Virus record (IMG/VR): IMGVR_UViG_3300020391_000003
Span: 62,001-126,000 of that record
Length of the DNA: 64,000 nt
Direction: 5' to 3' (one strand)
DNA from: a virus
Positions 4,522-44,645 of the stretch are shown piece by piece. Each line of letters starts with the position of its first letter. Position 1 is the first letter of the stretch. The notes beneath the pieces are model-generated. The model made no database searches, was not told the origin of the DNA, and saw nothing but the letters and a program-made list of their open reading frames with translations. The position numbers and the translations under genes were made by a program.

Positions 4522-4704
4522 ATGGAAAAGAAATTTTGGCACAGTAAAAAGTTTTGGGCAGCAGTTTTTGCAGCAGCAACACCTCTGTTCAATCATTATT
4601 TTCATTTAGGCTTAACTCCGGAACTGACGATGCAAATCACAGGTCCGATATTGGCCTACATTCTTGGACAAGGTCTCGCAGATCTTGGTAAGAATAAATC
4701 ATAG
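4522..4704 (+). CDS. Small membrane protein, holin-like
   Basis: The 60-residue protein has two hydrophobic stretches: FWAAVFAAATPLFNHYF (about residues 11-27) and ITGPILAYILGQGLADLG (about 39-56), with Lys at both ends. Size and shape fit small phage membrane proteins including holins, but no lysis gene adjoins it, so holin is only a possibility. The tmRNA begins 16 bases after the stop. Confidence 0.5.
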   Translation: MEKKFWHSKKFWAAVFAAATPLFNHYFHLGLTPELTMQITGPILAYILGQGLADLGKNKS

Positions 4705-4720
4705 TTCTTTAAAATTTTAT

Positions 4721-5082
4721 GGGCGTGTTCTGGATTCGATTTTTATTGGATTAGTTCACTGCAAGCCGAAGAGGTGCCTGGCTTCGATAAAAGGCACAAG
4801 CGAATAAATGCTAAAAACATTAATTCTGTTGAATCCTTCTCTCAAGAAGGGCTCGCTCTTGCAGCTTAAGTCTGCAACCTCTCCTCAATTGACGCAGATA
4901 AATTGAATGAGGGGTCATCCATCTGCAAAACAGATAAAAGTTTACTTGTTTCACAAACTGTAAATAATTGAGACAATTAGTTTGATGTTAATATCATAAC
5001 TATAAAAAAAATTAACTAAGCTTGTAGACGTGAATCTCTTGATGATAAAAAGACGCGGGTTCAACTCCCGCCACGTCCACCA
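4721..5082 (+). ncRNA. ssrA: Transfer-messenger RNA (tmRNA)
   Basis: A one-piece tmRNA of 362 bases. The 5' end GGGCGTG pairs with CACGTCC near the 3' end to form the 7-bp acceptor stem (one G-T pair), followed by A and an encoded CCA. The 5' segment has TTCTGGATTCGAT, the conserved tRNA-like start, and the 3' end has a T arm GCGGGTTCAACTCCCGC. The tag frame runs 4810-4869 and reads AKNINSVESFSQEGLALAA then TAA; the resume codon is GCT, and the ALAA end is the classic protease-recognition tail. It would rescue stalled ribosomes and tag the products. Host genes usually provide this; a phage copy is uncommon. Confidence 0.93.
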
Positions 5083-28323: not shown

Positions 28324-30612
28324 ATGATTATTGCAGAAAACAAACAAAAGAAAGTTGTAAGCTCACATGACTTTGATTCGGTGAGTTGTACTATTGATGC
28401 AGAAGATATGCGTTATGTTGCATCTCTTCTCAGAAACAATTACTCTAATACGCAACTTGCGGTCATTAGAGAGATTAGTGCGAACGCACTAGACGCAAAC
28501 CTAGAGGCAAATTCAAAGCGTAAAATTGAAGTCTCTCTACCAACTCGTATGCAATCTAATTTTTGCGTTCGTGATTTTGGCGGTGGACTAAGCAAAGAAG
28601 ATGTCTTTGGATTGTACTCCAAGTATGGCAAGTCTACCAAAAGACAATCGAACAATTATATTGGTGCATTTGGAATCGGCAAATTTGCCCCTTTGTCTTA
28701 CGGAGAAAATTTCACTTGCGTTTCATATCATGGTGGAATGAAAACTTCCTACAACATTTTTGTCAACGAAGAAGATGACACTAAGATTGTCGAACTGCAT
28801 CAAGAACCTAGTGCTGAACCAACAGGTTTGTGCATCGAAGTTGCAATTTCTGATTCGGATATTGAAAAGTTTCGAGATACTTGCCAAAAGTTTTTCAAGT
28901 TCTTTCCCGAAAAAGATATGCCCAAGTTTCTTGGTGTTGAATCTAATTTTATAGAAAAACAAAAGATATTACTTTCTAGCAAGAAAGACGATTGGTTTTT
29001 CTTGGAAAGCTCAAATACTCGTTATTATGGATATGGAAATTCTAGTCGTTCTCATGTTATCATGGGCAGAGTTTCATATCCTCTCGATCCTAATGCGATT
29101 GATGTAAAGAATTATGTAAAAGATGATCGACAAATTAATATCATCGAATCTTTATTGCAAGAATCAAATTTTTATTTGCGAGTACCATTGGGTTGCGTAA
29201 AGTTGCATCATAGCAGAGAAGCATTGGAATACAACAAACCAACACAAAAGTTTATTGTGCAACTTATGCTAGAAGTGGTGCAAGAAATTCAAGCAATCGC
29301 AAAAGAAAAACTTGCCGATTCAGCAGATTTATTTCAAGCAAAAGCTAATTATGCTAAAATTATAAATTCTATGCCCGATTCTTTGCAAAGAGCATTTAGA
29401 AATTCTTTTGAATGGAACGGAATAAAGATTGATTCTTTTGGATTTAGTCGTCCATATGGAATGACAGATGATCTTGTTTTGACTCTAACCGAAAAGATTT
29501 CTGATCGTGATGCTCGTAATGGATTCAAAGTTAAAAGTCACAAAGTATCCAATATTAATTGCAGAGATAATGTTATTTTTCTTGTGCAAGATATTGAATC
29601 TTCTCATGGCAATAACCTTAGAGCAAGAACTCTGTTTAATCAAGATTCTAATTTACAAGATATATATTTTATTCATGCAAAAACCGATACTGCACAAAGT
29701 GTTATTGACAACGAATGGAATTTCAATTTGATTGACGATTCTCATATCAAGTATTGCTCTAATGTTGCCAAAGAAAAACCTCAAATTGGAGTCAGAAAAG
29801 GTAGTGGAAGTCGAGCAAACATTCCTTTGTTTGAAATGAAAGATGATAAAGGTGGATATGGTTATCGCAACATTGATTATTGGTCTAATGTTGCGGATGA
29901 TATTTCTGTCTTGCAGTCTCAAAAAAATCCCAAGGGATTGGTCAACGGAAAGTATATTTATGTTCCAATCAAGAATTACAAGATTGACCACAAGAGTTTG
30001 GACTTGGATGCAGTCTACAAAAGAGCAAGTGGTATTCGTAAACTTGCCCAAGATAAATCGCAAGAAAAATCTTTTCGATTATTTGGAGTTAGAAGTGGAG
30101 ATGTATCCAAGTTGGACAAAAGTCTTTGGTTATCATTCTTTGATTTCTATGCAGATTTTGCAAAGACCTATCTCAAGTTAAATTTGAAGTCTGCCAAGAC
30201 ATCTTATGGAAGCATTATGGCATCAAAAGATTCACAACTTCATACGCTTATGAATGAAGTCAGATATGATATTGGTGCAATTTTCAACAACAATAATGTA
30301 AAATTGGATTCTCTAGGTGAAGATCATCTTATATTTCAATCGAAGAAAAAATATAATACAATTATCCATGACAATGAATCTCCAACTTGCAGATCATACA
30401 TTGTATACTTGCTTGCAAACGGACATCAAGATTGGGTTGACTTCAACTTCAACGGATCATTTTCTGCCAAGCAAATGAAGAAAGATATTAATGCAATTAT
30501 TTCTACTTATCCGATGCTCACTTATGTTGGCTCAAGTGTAAATAATTACAGAGGAACTCCCAAGGTATACCAACAAATTATCGACTACATACAAATGGTA
30601 GACAAAAATTAA
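28324..30612 (+). CDS. rIIA: rIIA-like protein with GHKL ATPase domain
   Basis: The 762-residue protein opens with a GHKL ATP-binding domain: IREISANALDANLEAN (N box, Glu50, Asn54, Asp57), VRDFGGGLS (G1, D84-x-G-x-G) and IGAFGIGKFAPLSY (G2). Size (T4 rIIA is about 725) and order fit rIIA. The rest is alpha/beta with no motif I can name. In T4, rIIA and rIIB protect against Rex-mediated exclusion by lambda lysogens and associate with membrane. The rIIB-like gene follows with its own promoter. This pairing strengthens the call. Confidence 0.8.
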   Translation: MIIAENKQKKVVSSHDFDSVSCTIDAEDMRYVASLLRNNYSNTQLAVIREISANALDANLEANSKRKIEVSLPTRMQSNFCVRDFGGGLSKEDVFGLYSKYGKSTKRQSNNYIGAFGIGKFAPLSYGENFTCVSYHGGMKTSYNIFVNEEDDTKIVELHQEPSAEPTGLCIEVAISDSDIEKFRDTCQKFFKFFPEKDMPKFLGVESNFIEKQKILLSSKKDDWFFLESSNTRYYGYGNSSRSHVIMGRVSYPLDPNAIDVKNYVKDDRQINIIESLLQESNFYLRVPLGCVKLHHSREALEYNKPTQKFIVQLMLEVVQEIQAIAKEKLADSADLFQAKANYAKIINSMPDSLQRAFRNSFEWNGIKIDSFGFSRPYGMTDDLVLTLTEKISDRDARNGFKVKSHKVSNINCRDNVIFLVQDIESSHGNNLRARTLFNQDSNLQDIYFIHAKTDTAQSVIDNEWNFNLIDDSHIKYCSNVAKEKPQIGVRKGSGSRANIPLFEMKDDKGGYGYRNIDYWSNVADDISVLQSQKNPKGLVNGKYIYVPIKNYKIDHKSLDLDAVYKRASGIRKLAQDKSQEKSFRLFGVRSGDVSKLDKSLWLSFFDFYADFAKTYLKLNLKSAKTSYGSIMASKDSQLHTLMNEVRYDIGAIFNNNNVKLDSLGEDHLIFQSKKKYNTIIHDNESPTCRSYIVYLLANGHQDWVDFNFNGSFSAKQMKKDINAIISTYPMLTYVGSSVNNYRGTPKVYQQIIDYIQMVDKN

Positions 30613-30613
30613 C

Positions 30614-30642
30614 TTGACAAACTATAAAAAATCAACTATACT
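30614..30642 (+). promoter_or_regulatory. Promoter of the rIIB-like gene, leaderless type
   Basis: TTGACA and TATACT are 17 bases apart; the ATG at 30649 begins 6 bases after the -10, and the -35 lies 1 base after the rIIA-like stop. Confidence 0.82.
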
Positions 30643-30648
30643 ATAATT

Positions 30649-31731
30649 ATGAAAAAAGTACCATATCAATTAAGCGAAAGTTCAATTACTATTTTTTGGG
30701 AAGGCAAACCTTATACCCTTCGCAAAGATCATCCTAATTTTGTGCTTGCTCGTCAAGCAATCTTTGATGCAAGGTATGAAGACCTTGGTAGTCTTCTTGA
30801 CATCAAGAAGTCAGTCGAAAACTTTATCGAAGGAGATATTGAAGTCAAAGATGAAGTTGTTTATTACAAAGGTCATCGTTTGCATGGAGTTGTTGTAGAC
30901 AAGCTCATAGAAATGCTTCGTCTTGGCATGAAAGATTCTGCTCCTTTGGTCAACTTTATTCAAAGGTTGCAGTCGAATCCATCTGCCAATTCAGTAAATG
31001 AACTTTATACTTTTCTAAGTTACAAGTCATTGCCTAATGATGAAGATGGCATGGTGTTGGGCTACAAAGGAGTACAAGGAAACTTTTGGAGTCAAACAGG
31101 AAATAGAGATACCATTGTTGTGCAAGGCAAGACCAATGAAAGACATCAAATCTATAACGGAGTTGGTGAAACCATCGAGGTTGCTCGTAGATGCGTAGAT
31201 GACAACAAAGACAATCATTGTTCCTTTGGACTTCATGTCGGCTCATACGATTATGCAAATAATTGGGCAGGAGAAGATGGAAAATTACTTGTTGTAAAAT
31301 TTGATCCTTCTGATGCAGTTAGTGTTCCTACTGATTGCGATTTTCAAAAGCTGAGAGTCAGCAAATACGAAGTAATCGCAGACATCACAGATAGTCGTAC
31401 AGAGCTTTTTAAACCTGTCTACGAGGCTAATAAGCCTATCTACGGATCAGACGATGATTACGATGCTTGTTGCGATGATAAAGATGAATATGGCGATTGC
31501 GATTGCGATGAAGAAGCTGATCTCGACTCTCTTGCTATTCGCAACTATGTTGAGAACAAACATGAGAATGAACAAAATCCTACTCTCAAGCAAATTCAAA
31601 GCAGAATGAAAGGTTCTGAACTGACTTGCGGAGAAATCCTTGACATTGTTAGAGATTTTGGATATTATGTATGTGAGAATTATGGTTCACCTAGATCATT
31701 GTGGATTGTCGAACCAAACCCTAATCAATAA
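30649..31731 (+). CDS. rIIB: rIIB-like protein
   Basis: The 360-residue protein contains the rIIB core: HGVVVDKLIEMLRLGMKDSA, ELYTFLSYKSLPNDEDGMVL, GVGETIEVARRCVDDN, then CSFGLHVGSYDYANNW and LLVVKFDPSDAVSVPTDCDF with KLRVSKYEVIADI. This C-S-x-G-L-H-x-G-x-x-x-Y-A and P-x-D-x-V-S-V-P-x-D pattern marks rIIB and its relatives. After about residue 260 an acidic Cys-rich linker (DYDACCDDKDEYGDCDCDE) leads to a C-terminal helical domain. It works with rIIA in T4; the target here is unknown. Confidence 0.85.
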   Translation: MKKVPYQLSESSITIFWEGKPYTLRKDHPNFVLARQAIFDARYEDLGSLLDIKKSVENFIEGDIEVKDEVVYYKGHRLHGVVVDKLIEMLRLGMKDSAPLVNFIQRLQSNPSANSVNELYTFLSYKSLPNDEDGMVLGYKGVQGNFWSQTGNRDTIVVQGKTNERHQIYNGVGETIEVARRCVDDNKDNHCSFGLHVGSYDYANNWAGEDGKLLVVKFDPSDAVSVPTDCDFQKLRVSKYEVIADITDSRTELFKPVYEANKPIYGSDDDYDACCDDKDEYGDCDCDEEADLDSLAIRNYVENKHENEQNPTLKQIQSRMKGSELTCGEILDIVRDFGYYVCENYGSPRSLWIVEPNPNQ

Positions 31732-37515: not shown

Positions 37516-38709
37516 ATGACGAAAAAATTGCAAACACTCTACAAAGTAGATACCAAAGGAAAACTGCGTGAATGGACTATGCACATTGATGGCAATTCAT
37601 TTTATGCAGTCAAGGGTCTTGTCGATGGCAAGAAAACTCAAGACAAAGCTACAACCACAATCGCTAAGAATGTTGGGCGAAGCAATGAAACTACTCCCGA
37701 AGCTCAAGCAGAGTTACAAGCTCAAGCCAAGTTCCAAAAGAAATTGGATAGTGGATATGCTCTTAACGAGATAGATGCACAAGAAAAAAAGTTTTATGAG
37801 CCTATGCTTGCACACAACTTTAAAGATCGTAAGCACGAATTGAAGTATCCTATTTACTCGCAACCAAAACTAGATGGTATTCGTTGCATCGTTCGCAAAG
37901 AAGGTGATACGCTTGTAGGAAGAACTCGCAATGGTAAAGAGATAGAATGTATTCCTCACATTCTTTCAAGCCTAAATAGCTTTTTTCTCGCTCATCCAAA
38001 GGCTATTCTCGATGGAGAATTGTACAACCATGATCTAAGAGACAACTTCAATAAAATTACTTCACTTGTTCGCAAGCAAAAACCTGTTAAATCAGATAAG
38101 ATGACAGACAATGCTTATGCAAAAAAAGTAAAAGAATATCAAGAAAGACTCGCAGAAGCAGAAGAGACAATTCAATATCATGTATATGATGTTCCTTATC
38201 TTCACGATTCATGCACAGAAAAAACTTCATTCGATATGCGTTTTACTGAACTAAAAAATTCATTGAATATTGGTATTGTTATTCACCGCAATGTAACATT
38301 AGTTGAAACTAGTGAAGTGTTTAATGAAAGTGATCTTGACAATTTGTATGGTCAGTATCTTGATCTAGGATACGAAGGTCAAATGGTTCGCAAAGATGAA
38401 GCATACGAAAACAAACGAAGCACAACTTTGCTCAAGCGTAAAGAGTTTATTGATTCCGAATATCGAGTGATTGACATTGATGTAGGCAATGGTAATCGTA
38501 GTGGTACTGCAAAGCATCTTGTATGCTACTGCGACAAGACCAAGCAAACATTCAATTCAAACATCAAAGGTTCATTTGATTACCTCAAAGAAGTTTATGA
38601 TAATCGCAAAGATTATATTGGTCAGTTGGCTACAATCAAGTATTTCCAACTTACTCCCGATGGAATTCCACGCTTTCCGTATGCAATAAGTTTCAGAAAC
38701 TACGAGTAA
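37516..38709 (+). CDS. ATP-dependent DNA ligase with N-terminal WGR-like domain
   Basis: The 397-residue protein starts with a WGR-like stretch (LQTLYKVDTKGKLREWTMHI, KNVGRSNETTPEAQA) and then a ligase core: YSQPKLDGIR with the adenylation Lys at about 118, RTRNGKEIE, AILDGELYNHD, EGQMVRKDEAYENKRS (motif IV) and LLKRKEFIDSEYRVID (motif V). The C-terminal OB-fold part ends PRFPYAISFRNYE. It seals nicks using ATP. The WGR-type extension is known in other phage ligases. It closes with a 266-base ORF-poor, AT-rich stretch. Confidence 0.9.
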   Translation: MTKKLQTLYKVDTKGKLREWTMHIDGNSFYAVKGLVDGKKTQDKATTTIAKNVGRSNETTPEAQAELQAQAKFQKKLDSGYALNEIDAQEKKFYEPMLAHNFKDRKHELKYPIYSQPKLDGIRCIVRKEGDTLVGRTRNGKEIECIPHILSSLNSFFLAHPKAILDGELYNHDLRDNFNKITSLVRKQKPVKSDKMTDNAYAKKVKEYQERLAEAEETIQYHVYDVPYLHDSCTEKTSFDMRFTELKNSLNIGIVIHRNVTLVETSEVFNESDLDNLYGQYLDLGYEGQMVRKDEAYENKRSTTLLKRKEFIDSEYRVIDIDVGNGNRSGTAKHLVCYCDKTKQTFNSNIKGSFDYLKEVYDNRKDYIGQLATIKYFQLTPDGIPRFPYAISFRNYE

Positions 38710-38975
38710 ACATATACTCTAACATACAACACAACATATTAATATCTTTATATTCACTATACAAGACAATACAAAGCAAAATATAAGTAATAACATTGTT
38801 TTCTGTAATAATAAATAAAATATTGTGTGGTTTAATGTGGGTTAAAATGGTGAATAGTGGAGTGCGAGACTTAAATATATAAAATAATTGATTAGATTAT
38901 AAATTAAAAACAAATAATATTTCGAGCTTGAAAATAAAAAAAAATTAAATAAAATAAATAATAAGCACTAATTAA
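38710..38975. other. ORF-poor AT-rich stretch after the ligase gene
   Basis: About 266 bases without a supported gene on either strand. It is rich in A and T with scattered short G-rich patches. I see no promoter, tRNA-like fold or strong hairpin. It may be untranslated or regulatory. Confidence 0.4.
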
Positions 38976-39158
38976 ATGAAAAAATTACTAAAGTTATCGA
39001 CACAAATAACAAGACAATTACAAAAAATTTATTATAAAATACGGCGAATTACAAAAGTTTTTTTGTCAAATAAAAGCGAAAATAAACAAATTGAATTTGA
39101 GTTTAATGAGCATGGTCGAGATTCTTACGGATTTCCAAACTTTTTCAAAAGAAAATAA
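38976..39158 (+). CDS. Small basic protein
   Basis: The 60-residue product MKKLLKLSTQITRQLQKIYY... is very Lys/Arg-rich, with a final IEFEFNEHGRDSYGFPNFFK segment. No promoter is evident upstream. Not recognised. Confidence 0.4.
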   Translation: MKKLLKLSTQITRQLQKIYYKIRRITKVFLSNKSENKQIEFEFNEHGRDSYGFPNFFKRK

Positions 39159-39214
39159 AATAAGTCAATTCTTTACATTAATTTACAAAATTTTTAAGTT
39201 TTTTTAATTTATTC

Positions 39215-39243
39215 TTGACATCGTGTTTAATGTATTGTATACT
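39215..39243 (+). promoter_or_regulatory. Promoter with short leader
   Basis: TTGACA and TATACT are 17 bases apart; the ATG at 39256 follows by 12 bases, giving a leader of only about 5 bases. Confidence 0.75.
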
Positions 39244-39255
39244 ATGTAACATATT

Positions 39256-39423
39256 ATGAGTGAAGAAACACAACAAAATCAAGAAAGCGTATCTGTTCCA
39301 CCGCCACTAACAGACGAACAGAAGATAGAAATGCTTAAAAACATGATCGAAACTGCTCCAAGCGAGGAGATTCGCAAGCAAGTAGAAAAAGCTTTACAAC
39401 AACAACAACAAAATAATACTTGA
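39256..39423 (+). CDS. Small acidic Gln-rich protein
   Basis: The 55-residue product MSEETQQNQESVSVPPPLTD... is acidic with a Gln-rich C-terminus (EKALQQQQQNNT). Not recognised. Confidence 0.5.
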   Translation: MSEETQQNQESVSVPPPLTDEQKIEMLKNMIETAPSEEIRKQVEKALQQQQQNNT

Positions 39424-39434
39424 TACAATAAAAA

Positions 39435-39635
39435 ATGGATGAATTGCAAAAAATAAGTGCCGAAATAATAAATATATTTAATAATAAGGTAGAATCACTA
39501 TCAGAAGAACAAGCAGAAGTATTAAATTTGCACAATAATAGTATGAATTTTTATATTCAATTGGGTGATCGACAAAAAGCCATGTGGGAAGCACAACAAA
39601 CACTAAAATATTTAATCCAAATAACTCATGATTGA
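39435..39635 (+). CDS. Hypothetical helical protein, first of a tandem pair
   Basis: The 66-residue product has NNSMNFYIQLGDRQKAMWEA followed by QQTLKYLIQI. The next protein (39628) carries NESIQFFIEQDDTDRALLEA then RNLKKYLMRL at the same place, so the two are paralogues from a tandem duplication. Function unknown. Confidence 0.55.
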   Translation: MDELQKISAEIINIFNNKVESLSEEQAEVLNLHNNSMNFYIQLGDRQKAMWEAQQTLKYLIQITHD

Positions 39636-39849
39636 TGATCTTGATCCTAGTGCCGAAGAAGTATTACAACTTACTCTTGAAATATTACATTTAATTGAAA
39701 CTAAAGCTAGTTTGATTAGTGATGATGAGATGAATGAAGTGCTTATGTCTAATGAATCAATACAATTCTTTATTGAACAAGATGATACCGACAGGGCACT
39801 GCTTGAAGCCCGCAATCTAAAAAAATATTTAATGCGATTAGGCACATAA
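39628..39849 (+). CDS. Hypothetical helical protein, second of a tandem pair
   Basis: The 73-residue product is acidic, overlaps the preceding paralogue by 8 bases and shares its C-terminal N-x-S-x-x-F-x-I-x-x-x-D pattern. Not recognised. Confidence 0.5.
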   Translation: MIDDLDPSAEEVLQLTLEILHLIETKASLISDDEMNEVLMSNESIQFFIEQDDTDRALLEARNLKKYLMRLGT

Positions 39850-39984
39850 TAATATTGCATCATATAAAAAGCAATAATACAATCTTTTATCTTATACAAT
39901 ACATAATACTAAATAAACAATCTAATTGCAGGATATAAAAAGCAAAATATATCAATTCAAATAAACATTTAATTATAAAAAATT

Positions 39985-40134
39985 ATGAAGCAAATAAACA
40001 CAAATAAGTATTTGGTTGGCAAAAAGAAGTTGGGCAAAGGCAAAGTCGGAGCTAGAGGTGGAGTTGGTGTTCCAACAGGAGCTTTCGGAGGAAAATCCAA
40101 GTTCAACAAGAAAAAGCTTGACAAGTCTGAGTAA
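39985..40134 (+). CDS. Small basic Gly-rich protein
   Basis: The 49-residue product MKQINTNKYLVGKKKLGKGK... is Lys/Gly-rich throughout, with GARGGVGVPTGAFGGKSKF. Likely disordered and nucleic-acid-binding. The -35 of the next promoter is in its last codons. Confidence 0.5.
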   Translation: MKQINTNKYLVGKKKLGKGKVGARGGVGVPTGAFGGKSKFNKKKLDKSE

Positions 40135-40145
40135 TCTGTCATAAT
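40118..40145 (+). promoter_or_regulatory. Promoter of CTGTCATAAT type
   Basis: TTGACA and CATAAT are 16 bases apart, with ATCTGT directly before the -10. The gene starts at 40184, so this one has a leader, with AAGGAAA before ATG. Confidence 0.78.
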
Positions 40146-40183
40146 AGAGTACATCAACCATTAATTGCTAACGAAAGGAAATT

Positions 40184-40405
40184 ATGAGCATTGCAAAAAA
40201 CGCACGAGCAAGTCAAGTTATGAACGACATACAGAGTGGCAAACACACGCCCATCAATAAAAGAGGTAAGTTTGCAAATTTCGGTTCAATCGCAGAAGAT
40301 AGTATTTATTATCACACAATGCTTGCAGATCAAGCTGATGCAAAACAAAAAGCTAAAGCTCAACAAGCTAAAGCAAGACTTAGATTAAAAGGAATTATTG
40401 TTTAA
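40184..40405 (+). CDS. Small basic helical protein
   Basis: The 73-residue product MSIAKNARASQVMNDIQSGK... is basic, ending in an Ala/Lys/Gln helix (AKQKAKAQQAKARLRLKG). AAAGGAAATT before the ATG gives one of the few clear ribosome-binding sites here. Not recognised. Confidence 0.55.
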   Translation: MSIAKNARASQVMNDIQSGKHTPINKRGKFANFGSIAEDSIYYHTMLADQADAKQKAKAQQAKARLRLKGIIV

Positions 40406-40407
40406 TT

Positions 40408-40680
40408 ATGCACCCAAAAGTAGAACAACCTGTTGGTTCGTATACCGAATTTGAAAAGCTTGCCTGGATAAGCACCAAAGCAATTCCTGCCATAGGAAGT
40501 AAGCTGAATGTAAAAATTAATGGAATTGGCGAATCTATTGTTAAGAAGTATTTCGTAGAGTATGGCTTTATTGGGATGCTTGTTACTCCTCAGAATCCAC
40601 CTGCTTGGTACATCAAGCAAAACGGAAAAGGTGCTGATTGCCATGTTTATCCTGCTGAATGTGAAGAGCTAAGAGGATGA
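40408..40680 (+). CDS. Hypothetical protein
   Basis: The 90-residue product has TKAIPAIGSKLNVKINGIGE and AEYGFIG-like turns (VEYGFIGMLVTPQNPPAWYI), suggesting a small beta-barrel. It starts 2 bases after the previous stop. Not recognised. Confidence 0.45.
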   Translation: MHPKVEQPVGSYTEFEKLAWISTKAIPAIGSKLNVKINGIGESIVKKYFVEYGFIGMLVTPQNPPAWYIKQNGKGADCHVYPAECEELRG

Positions 40681-40686
40681 TTAACA

Positions 40687-40893
40687 ATGGACTGGATAGT
40701 TAGAACATACGACGAGCAAGACAATCAAATCTCGTCCTTTATTATACAGAATAGAACAGAGTCTCAGGCAGAGCGTGAGGCGATGCACGATACAGAAGTT
40801 AGATCCGCCGAAGATTGGAGTATGGAGGAATACAATGGAATGATTAACCCATCAGATAAAAGCAAAATAAATAAAAAAACTCTTGACAAATAA
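40687..40893 (+). CDS. Hypothetical protein
   Basis: The 68-residue product starts MDWIVRTYDEQDNQISSFII, a W-x-V-R-x-Y/F-D...I-x-x-x-x-I-x-x-R-T-E-x-x-A-x-x-E-A pattern typical of small phage proteins. The promoter of the RNA gene overlaps its last codons. Confidence 0.5.
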   Translation: MDWIVRTYDEQDNQISSFIIQNRTESQAEREAMHDTEVRSAEDWSMEEYNGMINPSDKSKINKKTLDK

Positions 40894-40911
40894 TAAATAA
40901 TAGAGTATAAT
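40883..40911 (+). promoter_or_regulatory. Perfect consensus promoter of the RNA gene
   Basis: TTGACA and TATAAT are both perfect and 17 bases apart. No ORF follows for about 380 bases, so the transcript beginning near 40918 is best read as non-coding. Confidence 0.85.
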
Positions 40912-40917
40912 AGATAC

Positions 40918-41257
40918 ATAAATTTGAGAACAAAACTCAAATAAATAAAATAAATTGATCTTTAACATTTTAAACACTTTGGAAGGGCTTATAATCCTTC
41001 CTGTGGGTGACTGAGCAAGCCTGTGATGAGCGGGCTAAGGTACGCAGATTCCTTGTGGTGAGGTAGCAGAGTCCAATCGGATGAGCTGATGACGAATACC
41101 AAGTCTAATTTGTGGTGCGAAGTAGGAAACACTTGAACTGATGTTCATCCCGAAAAGTCGAGGGTATACAGTAATCCCTTCCCACACTAATTTTCTTAAT
41201 CATACAATCCCTAACCCTGTCCAAGACAAAGAAGAACCTCTTGGATGGGGTTTTTTT
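40918..41257 (+). ncRNA. Candidate structured non-coding RNA, unassigned
   Basis: An ORF-free transcription unit lies between a perfect promoter and an intrinsic terminator. The middle (about 40981-41186) is far more GC-rich than its surroundings. GGAAGGG at 40981 pairs with CCCTTCC at 41176, closing a ~200-base domain. Inside are AGCCTG/CGGGCT (41018/41031), a TAAGG/CCTTG hairpin (41036/41051), TACCA/TGGTG (41097/41113) and GAAC-TGAT-GTTC (41135-41146). GGAAGG can instead pair with CCTTCC at 40996, and CCCACA at 41181 with TGTGGG at 41002, so two exclusive folds exist. It matches no RNA family I know. Confidence 0.65.
41213..41257 (+). terminator. Intrinsic terminator of the RNA gene
   Basis: The inverted segments AACCC plus TCCAAGA (41213-41226) and TCTTGGA plus GGGTT (41239-41252) pair into an interrupted stem, followed by a run of seven T. 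Confidence 0.75.
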
Positions 41258-41258
41258 G

Positions 41259-41288
41259 TTTGACAGTCGCATCAAAACCTGGCATAAT
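41259..41288 (+). promoter_or_regulatory. Promoter, leaderless type
   Basis: TTGACA and CATAAT are 18 bases apart; the ATG at 41296 begins 7 bases after the -10. Its -35 lies just after the terminator T-run. Confidence 0.7.
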
Positions 41289-41295
41289 TATAATC

Positions 41296-41550
41296 ATGAA
41301 CACATTATTACAAATCTTCACGAATTGGGGTTACATTACCGATTCACAACTCAAAGAACTTGTTGAATACTTTCCGCACACGAAAGTGGTTATTCAATGG
41401 GGCAGAATGAAACGCGAGCGTCTTCCAGCATGGGAAGCAATTGAACGCATGGAAAAAGTAGAAGCAGAGGACATTGATTATGTTCGTTCTGTCTTTTTTA
41501 CTTCTCAGGACATGGACAAGCTCAGAGAAGTATTTCACATTGTTCATTAA
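41296..41550 (+). CDS. Hypothetical protein
   Basis: The 84-residue product MNTLLQIFTNWGYITDSQLK... is helical with acidic segments. The start is set by the promoter rather than an upstream in-frame ATG-like codon at 41245 that lies within the terminator. Not recognised. Confidence 0.5.
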   Translation: MNTLLQIFTNWGYITDSQLKELVEYFPHTKVVIQWGRMKRERLPAWEAIERMEKVEAEDIDYVRSVFFTSQDMDKLREVFHIVH

Positions 41551-41624
41551 TGGAAATCTCAATCATAATAATAATCAGTTTTACAATAGGTATGATAAGA
41601 GCAATAACAGATAATAAACAATAA
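41550..41624 (+). CDS. Tiny membrane peptide
   Basis: The 24-residue product MEISIIIIISFTIGMIRAIT... has one short hydrophobic segment. It starts at a TAATG overlap with the previous gene. Reality uncertain. Confidence 0.3.
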   Translation: MEISIIIIISFTIGMIRAITDNKQ

Positions 41625-41730
41625 AATAATAAAAGACAAATACTTAAATACTAAATAATCAAGTTCAAATAATTAAATAAAAATTTAAAGTAAATTGCGT
41701 TCAATAGAATAAGTTAATTGAACGAAAAGT

Positions 41731-41796
41731 TTTGTGCAGCTCGGCCCCCCCTGCAATCGTATTGTGCAAGAAATTAAATGAATTGTTTTCTTGACA
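41731..41796 (+). repeat. GC-box element A
   Basis: AAAAGTT lies just upstream; then a C-rich core (GGCCCCCCC, 41743-41751) flanked by TGCAG/CTGCA, then TGCAATCGTATTGTGCA (41752-41768) and the CTTGACA promoter of the next gene 23 bases later. The 17-base segment recurs at 52053-52069. One of seven related elements. Confidence 0.7.
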
Positions 41797-41818
41797 TTCA
41801 CATCAATTCTGTCATAAT
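41791..41818 (+). promoter_or_regulatory. Promoter of CTGTCATAAT type after GC-box A
   Basis: TTGACA and CATAAT are 16 bases apart with TTCTGT before the -10; the ATG at 41825 begins 6 bases after. Confidence 0.8.
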
Positions 41819-41824
41819 GAAGTA

Positions 41825-42262
41825 ATGATTAAGCGAGACTCCCGATACAAGATAAACTTCAACAAAAAAGTCTTTGTTTACAAAAACCTTCACAAAAACT
41901 GTTGGAGCGTAAAGCAAAGCGGATTAGTCAAAGCTCACGCTCTCGAATTGAATCTTTATGATTGCGTTCTCAAGGTCAGCAAAGCGGGTCAGCAAAGAGT
42001 GCGTAATGAAAAGTGTAAAAATGTTCATGCAGGTGTTAGCGGTTATCTTGAACCATACCACTTAGGATTGTCACACGAAGCAGAACTGAATGATGAAGCA
42101 AGAACATTTCAACGAGCTTGGGAAGGTTTACCAAATTCGCAGATGAGAGAGATTACTTACAATCCTTACAAGTATGACTCATTCGTTCATGCAGATGATC
42201 AAACTCCTCGTTGGTTTGGGTCTTTTGTAAGATTATTAGAAAATCAAGTATTTATTGCTTGA
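41825..42262 (+). CDS. Hypothetical conserved phage-type protein
   Basis: The 145-residue product has VYKNLHKNCWSVKQSGLVKA and LELNLYDCVLKVSKAGQQRV, which I recall from hypothetical proteins of phages and plasmids. It is basic with several conserved-looking Trp, Cys and His. A later part holds YLEPYHLG and GSFVRLLENQ. No function can be given. Confidence 0.55.
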   Translation: MIKRDSRYKINFNKKVFVYKNLHKNCWSVKQSGLVKAHALELNLYDCVLKVSKAGQQRVRNEKCKNVHAGVSGYLEPYHLGLSHEAELNDEARTFQRAWEGLPNSQMREITYNPYKYDSFVHADDQTPRWFGSFVRLLENQVFIA

Positions 42263-42287
42263 CTCAAACACCCCCAAATGATAGGAT
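42259..42287 (+). promoter_or_regulatory. Promoter, leaderless type
   Basis: TTGACT and TAGGAT are 17 bases apart; the ATG at 42294 begins 6 bases after the -10. It overlaps the end of the previous gene. Confidence 0.65.
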
Positions 42288-42293
42288 ACATTT

Positions 42294-42527
42294 ATGACAC
42301 AATCACAAATTAGAGAAATGATTATTCAACTCACGAAGGGTAATCTCGCATGGGCAGATCCAATGTCTAAAGTTTGCCTTGATCAACACGAACTTCATCC
42401 CAAAAAGTTTCCGCTTGGCAGTACTTTTCAGTCAGCAGAAGAAGTTTTGGATGACATCATTTCAGACTTGACATCTTTCAGAGATGAGCTTAGAATAGAA
42501 TCATCTTTTCAATCAGCACAATTGTAA
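42294..42527 (+). CDS. Hypothetical protein
   Basis: The 77-residue product is helical and acidic (LASEEVLDDIISDL-type, EEVLDDIISDLTSFRDELRI). Not recognised. Confidence 0.5.
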   Translation: MTQSQIREMIIQLTKGNLAWADPMSKVCLDQHELHPKKFPLGSTFQSAEEVLDDIISDLTSFRDELRIESSFQSAQL

Positions 42528-42543
42528 ACAAAAGGAAAAAATT

Positions 42544-42954
42544 ATGGGATTAGATCAATACGGATACGCAGTTCCCAAAGAGGAATCTGAAGCTAGAAAC
42601 GAATTAGCTTATTGGCGAAAGCACAACAGGCTACAAGGTTGGATGGAACAACTTTGGAATGACAAAGGCAGACCAAATGCACAAACAGATGGTAATGCCA
42701 TGGGCGACTTTAATTGTGTTGACCTAGAGCTAGATGCCGATGACATTGATGCTTTGGAAGAAGCAATTGAAAATTTCGCTTTGCCCGAAACACAAGGTTT
42801 CTTTTTTGGAGATGATTCCTACCTATGGGAAAGTGAAGATGGCAATCCTTCTTCGGCAAATTATTTTCACAAAGAGCAGGACTTGCAATTCGTTGAAGAA
42901 GCAAGAAAAGCTCTTGACAAAGGCGACAAAGTTGTTTATCATTGTTGGTATTGA
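42544..42954 (+). CDS. Conserved phage protein with YWRKHN motif
   Basis: The 136-residue product begins MGLDQYGYAVP and has ELAYWRKHNRLQGWMEQLWN, then a D/E-rich centre (VDLELDADDIDALEEAIENF), FFFGDDSYLW and DKVVYHCWY. The M-G-L-D-x-Y...Y-W-R-K-H-N pattern is recurrent in phage genomes, sometimes misannotated; its role is unknown. AAAGGAAAAAATT before ATG is a clear ribosome-binding site. Confidence 0.6.
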   Translation: MGLDQYGYAVPKEESEARNELAYWRKHNRLQGWMEQLWNDKGRPNAQTDGNAMGDFNCVDLELDADDIDALEEAIENFALPETQGFFFGDDSYLWESEDGNPSSANYFHKEQDLQFVEEARKALDKGDKVVYHCWY

Positions 42955-42956
42955 TT

Positions 42957-43157
42957 ATGAAAGAACTACAAGACATTATTAACGATCTGCAAGCTAGACT
43001 AGCAATAGTTGGTGGAGGCAGAATTATTATTACTAGCGATGATGTTTCAATTAGCTTGGGAGAAGAACACGAAAACTTTGAGGTTCAAGAAAAAAGTAGT
43101 TGTGATTCTCTGACCAATCCCGATGTTGAAATGTACAACCAAATGTGGGGACAATAA
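42957..43157 (+). CDS. Small hypothetical protein
   Basis: The 66-residue product MKELQDIINDLQARLAIVGG... has a coiled-coil start and a strand part. It begins 2 bases after the previous stop. Not recognised. Confidence 0.5.
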   Translation: MKELQDIINDLQARLAIVGGGRIIITSDDVSISLGEEHENFEVQEKSSCDSLTNPDVEMYNQMWGQ

Positions 43158-43158
43158 A

Positions 43159-43374
43159 ATGAACAATTACATTGATGCAATTTGCGAAGGACAACCTCTT
43201 GAGTTACCATCTTATGATCAAGACTCCGACATGTGGAGCCTTTGGTTTGAAGAATCAGATACTCCTTGGCATCCTTACTTTCAAAAAGATTTAATCGAGG
43301 TTCATTTCGAATCTCAAGCGGAAGCAGAAAGTGCTTATCACCATTACTCACAACCTAACGAAGGGATTTCATGA
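43159..43374 (+). CDS. Small acidic protein
   Basis: The 71-residue product MNNYIDAICEGQPLELPSYD... is acidic with many Trp and Ser. It ends in an ATGA overlap. Not recognised. Confidence 0.5.
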   Translation: MNNYIDAICEGQPLELPSYDQDSDMWSLWFEESDTPWHPYFQKDLIEVHFESQAEAESAYHHYSQPNEGIS

Positions 43375-43535
43375 ACAAGTCTAGAATCGAAAGATTAAGA
43401 ATGCAAGTTCGCGAAATAGGCCACAAGCTAGCAATCACTGAGAAACGTGGACTGCAAGGCAAGGACCATTTCGCTCAAAAAATTGCGCACGGTTTATTAT
43501 TGGACCAATTGTACAAGTTGGAAAAAAGAGTCTAA
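43371..43535 (+). CDS. Small basic helical protein
   Basis: The 54-residue product MNKSRIERLRMQVREIGHKL... begins at an ATGA overlap. GC-box B follows its stop. Not recognised. Confidence 0.5.
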   Translation: MNKSRIERLRMQVREIGHKLAITEKRGLQGKDHFAQKIAHGLLLDQLYKLEKRV

Positions 43536-43625
43536 AAGTTGACCTATTCGCGGGCGGGGGCCCCCCGCTAACCTATCCGGTTTTATTGTTGCATAATTCA
43601 ACTAAATGCAAAAAAGGTGTTGACA
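43536..43625 (+). repeat. GC-box element B
   Basis: AAAAGTTGACC (43536) is followed by the palindrome GCGGGGG/CCCCCCGC (43554-43568), TTTTATTGTTGCATAATTC (degenerate ATTGTGCAA and TTGAA region) and the TTGACA promoter at 43620. The left AAAAGTTGACC equals that of element D on the other strand. Confidence 0.72.
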
Positions 43626-43648
43626 GGATCGCTCTTTTACTTCATAAT
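43620..43648 (+). promoter_or_regulatory. Promoter after GC-box B
   Basis: TTGACA and CATAAT are 17 bases apart; the ATG at 43656 begins 7 bases after the -10. Confidence 0.8.
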
Positions 43649-43655
43649 TATACTT

Positions 43656-43832
43656 ATGAAAACAATTGATTGCACACCAACATGGAAAACAGCAGTAAGA
43701 ATTTTGACCGAAGTTCTTAAAAACCCAAAAGCCGGACACGCAGACAAGTCCAATGCCACAAACGAATTGCTTAGGCTTGCAGAGATTGTGGACAAACAAA
43801 ATGCACTTAATCGCAAAAAAAAGCTTGACTAA
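43656..43832 (+). CDS. Small helical protein
   Basis: The 58-residue product MKTIDCTPTWKTAVRILTEV... is helical and ends basic. The start is set by the promoter; an upstream in-frame ATG-like start would lie across it. The next promoter overlaps its end. Confidence 0.55.
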   Translation: MKTIDCTPTWKTAVRILTEVLKNPKAGHADKSNATNELLRLAEIVDKQNALNRKKKLD

Positions 43833-43853
43833 CACTAAAAAATTTCGTATAAT
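43825..43853 (+). promoter_or_regulatory. Promoter of the DUF932 gene, with leader
   Basis: TTGACT and a perfect TATAAT are 17 bases apart; the ATG (43893) lies about 40 bases downstream, giving an A-rich leader. Confidence 0.78.
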
Positions 43854-43892
43854 TAAAGCTTCAAAGACAATAACTCAAACCTTAAAAAAAGT

Positions 43893-44645
43893 ATGAATAA
43901 CAGAATTAATCTCTCAGTATGTGCCACAAAAGAATCTTCTTTCGAGGATGTCAAAGCAGTTGCCACTCCTCAAGCAACAGATTCATGGCAACCAATCAGT
44001 CACTCGTTTCTTGTGGATCGAGTTCAAAACCAAATGCAAGACAATGGTTGGGAAATCGTTAACACTTATCATTCTCTTCATCGTTATGGTCAGCGTTACT
44101 TTGGCTTGTTCCATGTTAAGAACACAGGCGTTGACAATGACGAGCGTGGAACTATTGTAGGACTTCGCAACTCGCATGACAAATGCTTTCCTGCAGGTCT
44201 TTGCATGGGCAATGCTCCATTTGTTTGCTCAAACCTTATTTTCACAAACGAGGTTGTTCTTGCTCGCAGACACACCAAAAACATTTTGAATGACTTGTCT
44301 CAAGTTATTGCTCGCACTCTTGGCAAAATGACTGAGACTTGGGCAAGCGATGAGCAACGCATTCAAGCTTACAAGCAGTACGAGCTTGGCAACGAGCAAG
44401 CTCATGACCTTGTGATTCGTGCGTATCAAAATGGTGCAATCAGCAAAGCTAAGATTGCAGATGTTGTTGAGCAATGGCACAAGCCCGAACACGATGACTT
44501 CTCTGAGAGAACCATGCACTCTCTTTACAATGGTTTCACTCACATTCTCAAAGGTGGTATTACCGCATTGCCAAATCGTTCTGTCGCACTTCATGGAGTT
44601 CTTGACTCCGAAGTTGGCTTGACCTCGCAAGTATCAGTTTCTTAA
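43893..44645 (+). CDS. DUF932 protein
   Basis: The 250-residue product has WQPISHSFLVDRVQNQMQDN, RYFGLFHVKN, IVGLRNSHDKCFPAGLCMG, and PFVCSNLIFTNEVVLARRHT. The V-G-L-R-N-S-x-D-K and V-C-S/D-N-L-x-F motifs are typical of DUF932, common in phages and plasmids, often near replication or recombination genes. Function unknown. GC content here is slightly higher than around it. Confidence 0.78.
   Translation: MNNRINLSVCATKESSFEDVKAVATPQATDSWQPISHSFLVDRVQNQMQDNGWEIVNTYHSLHRYGQRYFGLFHVKNTGVDNDERGTIVGLRNSHDKCFPAGLCMGNAPFVCSNLIFTNEVVLARRHTKNILNDLSQVIARTLGKMTETWASDEQRIQAYKQYELGNEQAHDLVIRAYQNGAISKAKIADVVEQWHKPEHDDFSERTMHSLYNGFTHILKGGITALPNRSVALHGVLDSEVGLTSQVSVS

Follow-up and report, generated by a model that had tools for sequence, protein, structure and literature searches.

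A structured phage RNA that carries a promoter and a terminator of its own raises two questions: whether it belongs to a known family, and whether it controls the gene behind it or works as an RNA gene in its own right. Such an RNA lies in the window analysed here, a stretch of 64,000 nucleotides that covers positions 62001-126000 of an IMG/VR virus record of 184,324 bases. The preliminary description of this DNA, made from the letters of the window, read it as a previously undescribed phage RNA with two exclusive folds. The evidence reviewed below points instead to a distant member of the manA family and argues for a free-standing gene.

Judged by its gene content, the record is a distant T4-like phage, marked by rIIA/rIIB and DNA ligase. 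The rIIA and rIIB homologues are adjacent at 28324-31731, and a T4-type DNA ligase gene lies at 37516-38709. The ligase is nearest to proteins of alphaproteobacterial phages and an uncultured phage, and RIIA has weak matches in many phages (Vibrio, Aeromonas, Caulobacter, Arthrobacter); both signals are too weak to decide the host.

The transcription unit

The features of the locus are collected in Table 1. The promoter described at the outset was confirmed at its coordinates and is the sole 12/12 site in the 6 kb scanned; transcription from it is expected to start near 40918. The intrinsic terminator proposed for the end of the unit was also located. It is absent from a simple terminator scan, which limited the loop to 8. 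The description of an ORF-free, GC-richer unit likewise holds: the G+C content of the RNA is 48%, that of the leader 17%, and that of the window 35%. No gene-like sense ORF was found in the RNA region, and the one sense ORF over the RNA (41141-41263, 40 aa) is chance-like. Antisense ORFs of 47-56 aa beneath the RNA were considered as genes and rejected, as they are chance-like and carry no sign of coding.

Table 1. Features of the manA unit and of the tmRNA gene, in window coordinates.
Feature	Position	Strand	Basis
Phage tmRNA gene (4721-5082) with boxA-like AGTTCTTTAAAATTTT directly upstream	4703-5082	+	RF00023, 153.9 bits; ARAGORN
Sigma70-type promoter TTGACA-17-TATAAT	40883-40911	+	TTGACA at 40883-40888, 17-nt spacer, TATAAT at 40906-40911; 12/12 match; relatives keep a promoter before the same leader
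Leader hairpin ATTTGAG-AACAAAA-CTCAAAT	40922-40942	+	Fold; stem changes and loop-tail pairs in relatives
boxA-like element TGATCTTTAACATTTT	40956-40971	+	Exact in the window; compared with E. coli rrn TGCTCTTTAACAATTT
manA RNA (Rfam RF01745), full length	40981-41190	+	Covariance model; covariation
P1 hairpin GGAAGG/CCTTCC	40981-41001	+	Covaries
Closing stem TGTGGG (41002-41007) with CCCACA (41181-41186)	41002-41186	+	Invariant pairs; Rfam closing stem
3' hairpin GAGGG-TATACAGTAAT-CCCTT	41160-41180	+	Helix 10; loop most conserved of the family
Intrinsic terminator	41215-41257	+	CCC (41215) to GGGG (41250), hairpin of -16.5 kcal/mol, then seven T at 41251-41257
Next-gene promoter TTGACA-17-CATAAT	41260-41288	+	11/12 match; directly 3' of the terminator
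Next gene, 84-aa protein, outside the RNA unit	41296-41550	+	Family downstream in 14/22 relatives

Own promoter and own terminator of a structured phage RNA are both located in the sequence. The product of the next gene has no Pfam match. Across 38000-44000 of the + strand, nine TTGACA-(16/17)-TATAAT-like sites reach at least 11/12, some right behind terminators, and small genes of this phage seem each to be served by a sigma70 promoter of their own. Further downstream, a C-rich word, GCAGCTCGGCCCCCCCTGCA, stands at 41736-41760 in an A+T-rich spacer and folds no better than its shuffles.

Family identity

The preliminary description knew of no fitting family and named a hit to a known RNA class in advance as one of the refuting outcomes. 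The Rfam covariance-model search (release 15) returned such a hit. RF01745 matches 40981-41190 at 74 bits, above the gathering score of 55.2 and over the whole model (1-192 of 192). It stands alone among Rfam matches at E<=1 in 40850-41320, and no Rfam family covers the leader by itself. On this full-length match, the window RNA is a member of the known manA family and not an undescribed RNA. It is a distant member, with 74 bits versus 124-193 bits for cyanophage manA.

The manA motif was described by Weinberg et al. in 2010 and rated a possible riboswitch, with reported positions in what may be the 5' UTRs of genes related to mannose, nucleotides, and photosynthesis (PMC2864571). Rfam assigns RF01745 the type Cis-reg, riboswitch candidate; the type is not part of the model. 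The window RNA shares with the family its helices, the conserved 3' hairpin GGUAUACAGUAAUCC, and carriage by large tailed phages. It differs in forming a separate transcription unit with a terminator and a boxA leader, whereas cyanophage members lack boxA.

Relatives in phages and bacteria

Relatives were gathered by scanning viral contigs with patterns of conserved segments and by a BLAST search of phages with the family consensus. Since the patterns came from the conserved core, divergent manA members were missed. The set comprises 126 distinct loci: 22 of group G (mean identity 79%), which includes the window copy (L001), and 104 of group C, the cyanophage type. Related loci are not independent events. 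Searched directly with the nucleotide sequence of the window, phage records yielded no relatives; only distant ones emerged, through the family consensus. Scanning genome contigs with the 3' hairpin pattern was set aside, as it yielded mostly chance matches.

Bacterial genomes hold few candidates. No manA was found in 395 Enterobacterales chromosomes, and one case among 397 in Actinomycetota is on a phage-like contig, L386. There, a divergent manA-like RNA (L386:1430-1636, 35.7 bits) lies between two small coiled-coil-like proteins; the contig had been placed in the bin of an Actinomycetota genome. Of 192 searched in the phylum to which a Saccharibacteria bin belongs, one gave a weak, unconfirmed match inside a reading frame.

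A conserved fold without a switch

By minimum free energy alone, the RNA (z of -0.62) and the unit as a whole (-1.73) are unremarkable, and the case for structure therefore relies on comparison. Across the 22 group-G RNAs, 96.6% of the cells of a 44-pair structure are paired, versus 89.2% in shuffled and 35-49% in slid versions; because this structure was partly read from the same sequences, the contrast with the slid versions is inflated, and two-sided changes are the firmer measure. Such compensatory changes, proposed as a check in the preliminary description, are present in 18 of the 44 pairs and amount to 77 cells versus 20 in shuffles (0/500).

P1, tested apart, keeps all six pairs in 20 of the 22 relatives and occurs in at least four sequence versions (GGAAGG/CCTTCC, GGAGAT/ATCTCC, GGATGT/ACATCC, and GGATAT/GTATCC). 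The five tested pairs of the closing stem, 41003-41007 with 41181-41185, are invariant in the 22 relatives and match the Rfam closing stem. Helix 10 is 100% paired, and two of its pairs show two-sided changes. What these comparisons show or strongly imply is a manA fold made up of the P1 hairpin, the invariant closing stem, internal helices, and the conserved 3' hairpin.

Two exclusive folds had been proposed, in which GGAAGGG (40981) pairs either with CCCTTCC (41176) or locally, while CCCACA binds TGTGGG. The long-range pairing is complete in 2 of 22 RNAs and reaches at most five of seven pairs in 13, whereas P1 forms locally in 20 of 22, and the CCC at 41176 is part of the conserved 3' hairpin. 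The CCCACA/TGTGGG pairing proved real, as the invariant closing stem, but it is not one side of a switch. By the comparative evidence it coexists with the P1 hairpin, and no conserved switch is present. All words of the suggested internal stems occur in the sequence. AGCCTG/CGGGCT is backed by covariation and GAAC/GTTC weakly so, but TAAGG/CCTTG and TACCA/TGGTG are not part of the comparative structure. An undescribed family with a two-state switch, to which the complementary words in the window had given some appeal, is ruled out by the full-length RF01745 match together with the unconserved alternative pairing, and its remaining probability is practically nil.

A leader of the rRNA type

Group-G RNAs are preceded by a leader in which a hairpin, TTGAG-loop-CTCAA, is followed by an A-rich linker, ATAAATAAAATA, and then by TGATCTTTAACATTTT. 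The last element is close to the boxA of rRNA leaders, such as that of E. coli rrnB (TGCTCTTTAACAATTT), which follows its boxB hairpin. A boxA of at least 11/13 within 140 nt is present at 16 of 21 group-G loci, versus 1.7% of shuffles. At L003, L154, L188, and L212, the promoter-hairpin-boxA module stands further upstream, with a variable insert before P1. L002 and L218 have promoter and boxA with the hairpin absent, and L176 has a partial boxA match. No boxA was found in group C at 11/13. Inserts of about 50-190 nt separate boxA from P1 in L003, L154, L188, L191, L200, L234, and L389, and many of them can form hairpins.

The leader structure itself changes in a paired manner. Its stem occurs as TTGAG/CTCAA, CTGAG/CTCAG, and TCGAG/CTCGA. 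In about a dozen of 31 boxA units, a collection that includes partial and newly found loci and holds no frequency information, as its units were picked for having boxA, the hairpin loop pairs with sequence just 5' of boxA to give a small pseudoknot. These pairs co-vary (GGAT/ATCC, GGGC/GCCC, GAGGC/GCCTC, and GGGT/ACCC, with GGGGC/GCCCC in L234 by eye). The leader pattern AAATAANNNNGATCTTTWACATTTT, run alone on 2.9 million viral contigs, gave three hits, all followed by manA; two of these loci, L389 and L390, are new and identical in sequence. A looser pattern of the other leader type recovered further manA units (L399 and L449) and fragments (L418 and L159) among many chance hits.

Both rRNA and CRISPR arrays are established cases of a boxA placed before a non-coding RNA (PMC7862264, PMC10931766). 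NusB-NusE(S10) binds boxA and counters Rho on untranslated RNA, and together with SuhB it aids rRNA folding (PMC10931766). Leaders of rRNA (boxB-boxA-boxC) and boxA-led CRISPR arrays share with the manA unit the order of promoter, hairpin, boxA, and structured untranslated RNA. The hairpin at 40922-40942 occupies the place of boxB in rRNA leaders, and the boxA elements compare as TGATCTTTAACA versus TGCTCTTTAACA. Here, however, the product is a 210-nt phage RNA, neither rRNA nor crRNA. The manA leader also differs from rRNA leaders in an A-rich linker of about 12-15 nt before boxA and, in part of the clade, in the loop-tail pseudoknot. A similarity between the RNA and rRNA themselves, the 23S stretch CTAAGGTAGCGAAATTCCTTGT compared with the window RNA, was dismissed because it is at chance level and absent in relatives.

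The comparison strongly implies a group-G RNA preceded by an rRNA-like leader of hairpin or small pseudoknot followed by boxA. With its promoter, leader, RNA, and terminator, the group-G unit resembles a small rRNA operon. We infer that the element of the manA leader functions as a boxA. It would then bring in the antitermination complex NusB-NusE(S10) of the host to shield the untranslated manA RNA from Rho and help it fold, as for rRNA. This reading of the leader is somewhat favoured by the evidence.

Free-standing gene or cis-regulator

The family has been classed as a candidate cis-acting riboswitch, in which the manA domain would bind a metabolite and thereby regulate the gene behind it, by way of either the terminator at 41215-41257 or translation. 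A conserved complex fold and the potential 5' UTR positions described earlier (PMC2864571) are consistent with this role, as is the downstream gene common to 14 of the 22 group-G relatives. At the window locus, the RNA stops at its own terminator and thus is no leader of the next gene, for which a separate promoter is present. The terminator and fresh promoter before that gene depart from the 5' UTR position in front of mannose, nucleotide, or photosynthesis genes. The window RNA also appears to lack an expression platform that overlaps or alternates with an aptamer. The order of terminator and then TTGAC recurs in many group-G relatives.

Promoters accompany the cyanophage copies as well. At 89% of 103 group-C loci, which were not picked for promoter presence, a promoter of at least 10/12 is placed to start transcription at the first P1 bases, versus 2.3% of shuffles; at 11/12, the values are 82% and 0.1%. 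Terminators within 130 nt follow 64% of the 22 group-G loci versus 2.5% of control windows, and 14% of group-C copies versus 0.7% of controls. Many group-C copies are followed after 10-50 nt by the start of an ORF, a point in favour of the riboswitch. Few terminators and close downstream ORFs make read-through into the downstream gene likely in group C, and a cis role is possible in some phages.

The genes behind manA vary widely. The proteins encoded downstream at 124 loci form 40 clusters; mannose-6-phosphate isomerase-like ones, recognized by eye, are found at two of the 124, one of them behind tRNA-Asp. Cyanophage sites include positions after gp23, before talC, before gp32, between regA and purL, and beside tRNA genes, among others. 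Five observations speak against cis-regulation as a general account of manA. Each of the 22 phage records (22/22) carries exactly one manA; the sites differ and the downstream clusters are many, with tRNAs among the downstream products; a strong promoter is placed at the start of P1 in most group-C loci; tRNAs adjoin some group-C copies, and the copy on the megaplasmid pMP7017 sits in a tRNA array; and most group-G copies have a terminator, which in the window gives way immediately to a separate promoter. Terminator sequences moreover diverge among relatives while the RNA is conserved, and the complementarity of its 3' end to the region of the terminator is on a par with shuffles (-15.1 versus -14.5 kcal/mol). 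A riboswitch is improbable on this evidence.

Sequence comparison strongly implies that manA RNA is transcribed from its own promoter, and that promoter, leader, and terminator would together yield a discrete RNA. The window feature thus encodes, in our judgement with good probability, an RNA of the manA family that would be free-standing and act in trans.

The company of tRNA and tmRNA

Adjacency of manA to tRNAs has been mentioned in passing (PMC10832533). At 12 of the 104 group-C loci, a same-strand tRNA is no more than 40 nt away, with 0.05 per side expected from tRNA density; the loci are partly related and do not represent 12 independent events. In S-SSM7, tRNA-Gly starts where the manA RNA ends. 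The window copy and its 21 closest relatives are not within or directly beside tRNA genes.

The Bifidobacterium megaplasmid pMP7017 has an array of 18 tRNAs that begins with a tmRNA, and its manA copy is flanked there by tRNA-Phe and tRNA-Arg. This copy scores 41.5 bits, below the Rfam cut-off, but it has been published (PMC10832533). It belongs to the same family as the window RNA and has a tmRNA on the same element; it differs by lying inside the tRNA array. The array of tmRNA, 18 tRNAs, and manA corresponds to L382:2877-7805 (pMP7017 120,876-125,804), and manA is 95-99% identical in B. longum plasmids.

A tmRNA gene above the cut-off is present in 10 of 23 clade records, among them all eight of at least 100 kb. 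Just before it, a boxA-like element of at least 9/10 was found for seven of the ten clade genes, versus 1.3% of shuffles. The boxA-like element of the window tmRNA, GTTCTTTAAAA, is letter-identical to the boxA of a Legionella CRISPR array (PMC7862264). The window tmRNA encodes the tag AKNINSVESFSQEGLALAA, and unusual tags occur in relatives, for example GKNKNRVVAFSPKAEQLALAA and GNKNRVRALGFKNRLAAKRFGFKGRKLALAA. None of 14 cyanophages has a tmRNA above the cut-off, so the manA-tmRNA link is specific to the clade; tmRNA as a general partner of manA is not supported in cyanophages.

Because of this tRNA and tmRNA company on phages and megaplasmids, an action in trans would most likely concern translation. 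A small regulatory RNA free of any link to translation RNAs, which would pair with host or phage mRNAs or titrate a host RNA-binding protein, fits a free-standing promoter-terminator unit and loops conserved as single strands. Nearly all conserved segments, however, belong to one compact fold with an invariant closing stem, a pattern more structural than seed-pairing, and the company of tRNA and tmRNA also weighs against this explanation, which we regard as somewhat unlikely.

GOLLD and ROOL are, like manA, phage-borne non-coding RNAs near tRNA islands (PMC12286853). The shared company of phages and tRNA islands could suggest that manA is a self-assembling ornate RNA of this kind, that is, an RNA-only cage. 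Yet GOLLD and ROOL are unrelated to manA in sequence and structure and several times larger, manA measures about 200 nt, and the RNA has no Rfam match to either; such an assembly is very improbable.

The window gene most likely encodes an RNA that is stable and acts in trans, with a probable role in translation during infection. That the mature RNA would act in trans on the infected cell's translation machinery, by analogy with the companion phage and plasmid tRNAs and tmRNAs, is proposed tentatively. The broadest account is speculative and rather doubtful. It would make the manA RNAs of phages and megaplasmids trans-acting, single-copy RNAs with an action on translation, not riboswitches, and would have the clade transcribe its manA and tmRNA through host rRNA-type boxA antitermination, with a hairpin/pseudoknot-boxA leader of its own.

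Implications

As far as the known literature shows, the case for manA as a free-standing RNA gene is new, as is the rRNA-type leader in the group-G phage clade. manA has been listed as a cis-regulatory riboswitch candidate since 2010, a label that annotations of phages and plasmids take over. Should manA instead be an RNA gene that stands on its own, the hunt for a ligand and a regulon would be misdirected. The boxA leader offers a concrete hypothesis for how phages may make large untranslated RNAs. manA would thereby join GOLLD and ROOL among the phage RNAs that keep the company of tRNAs.
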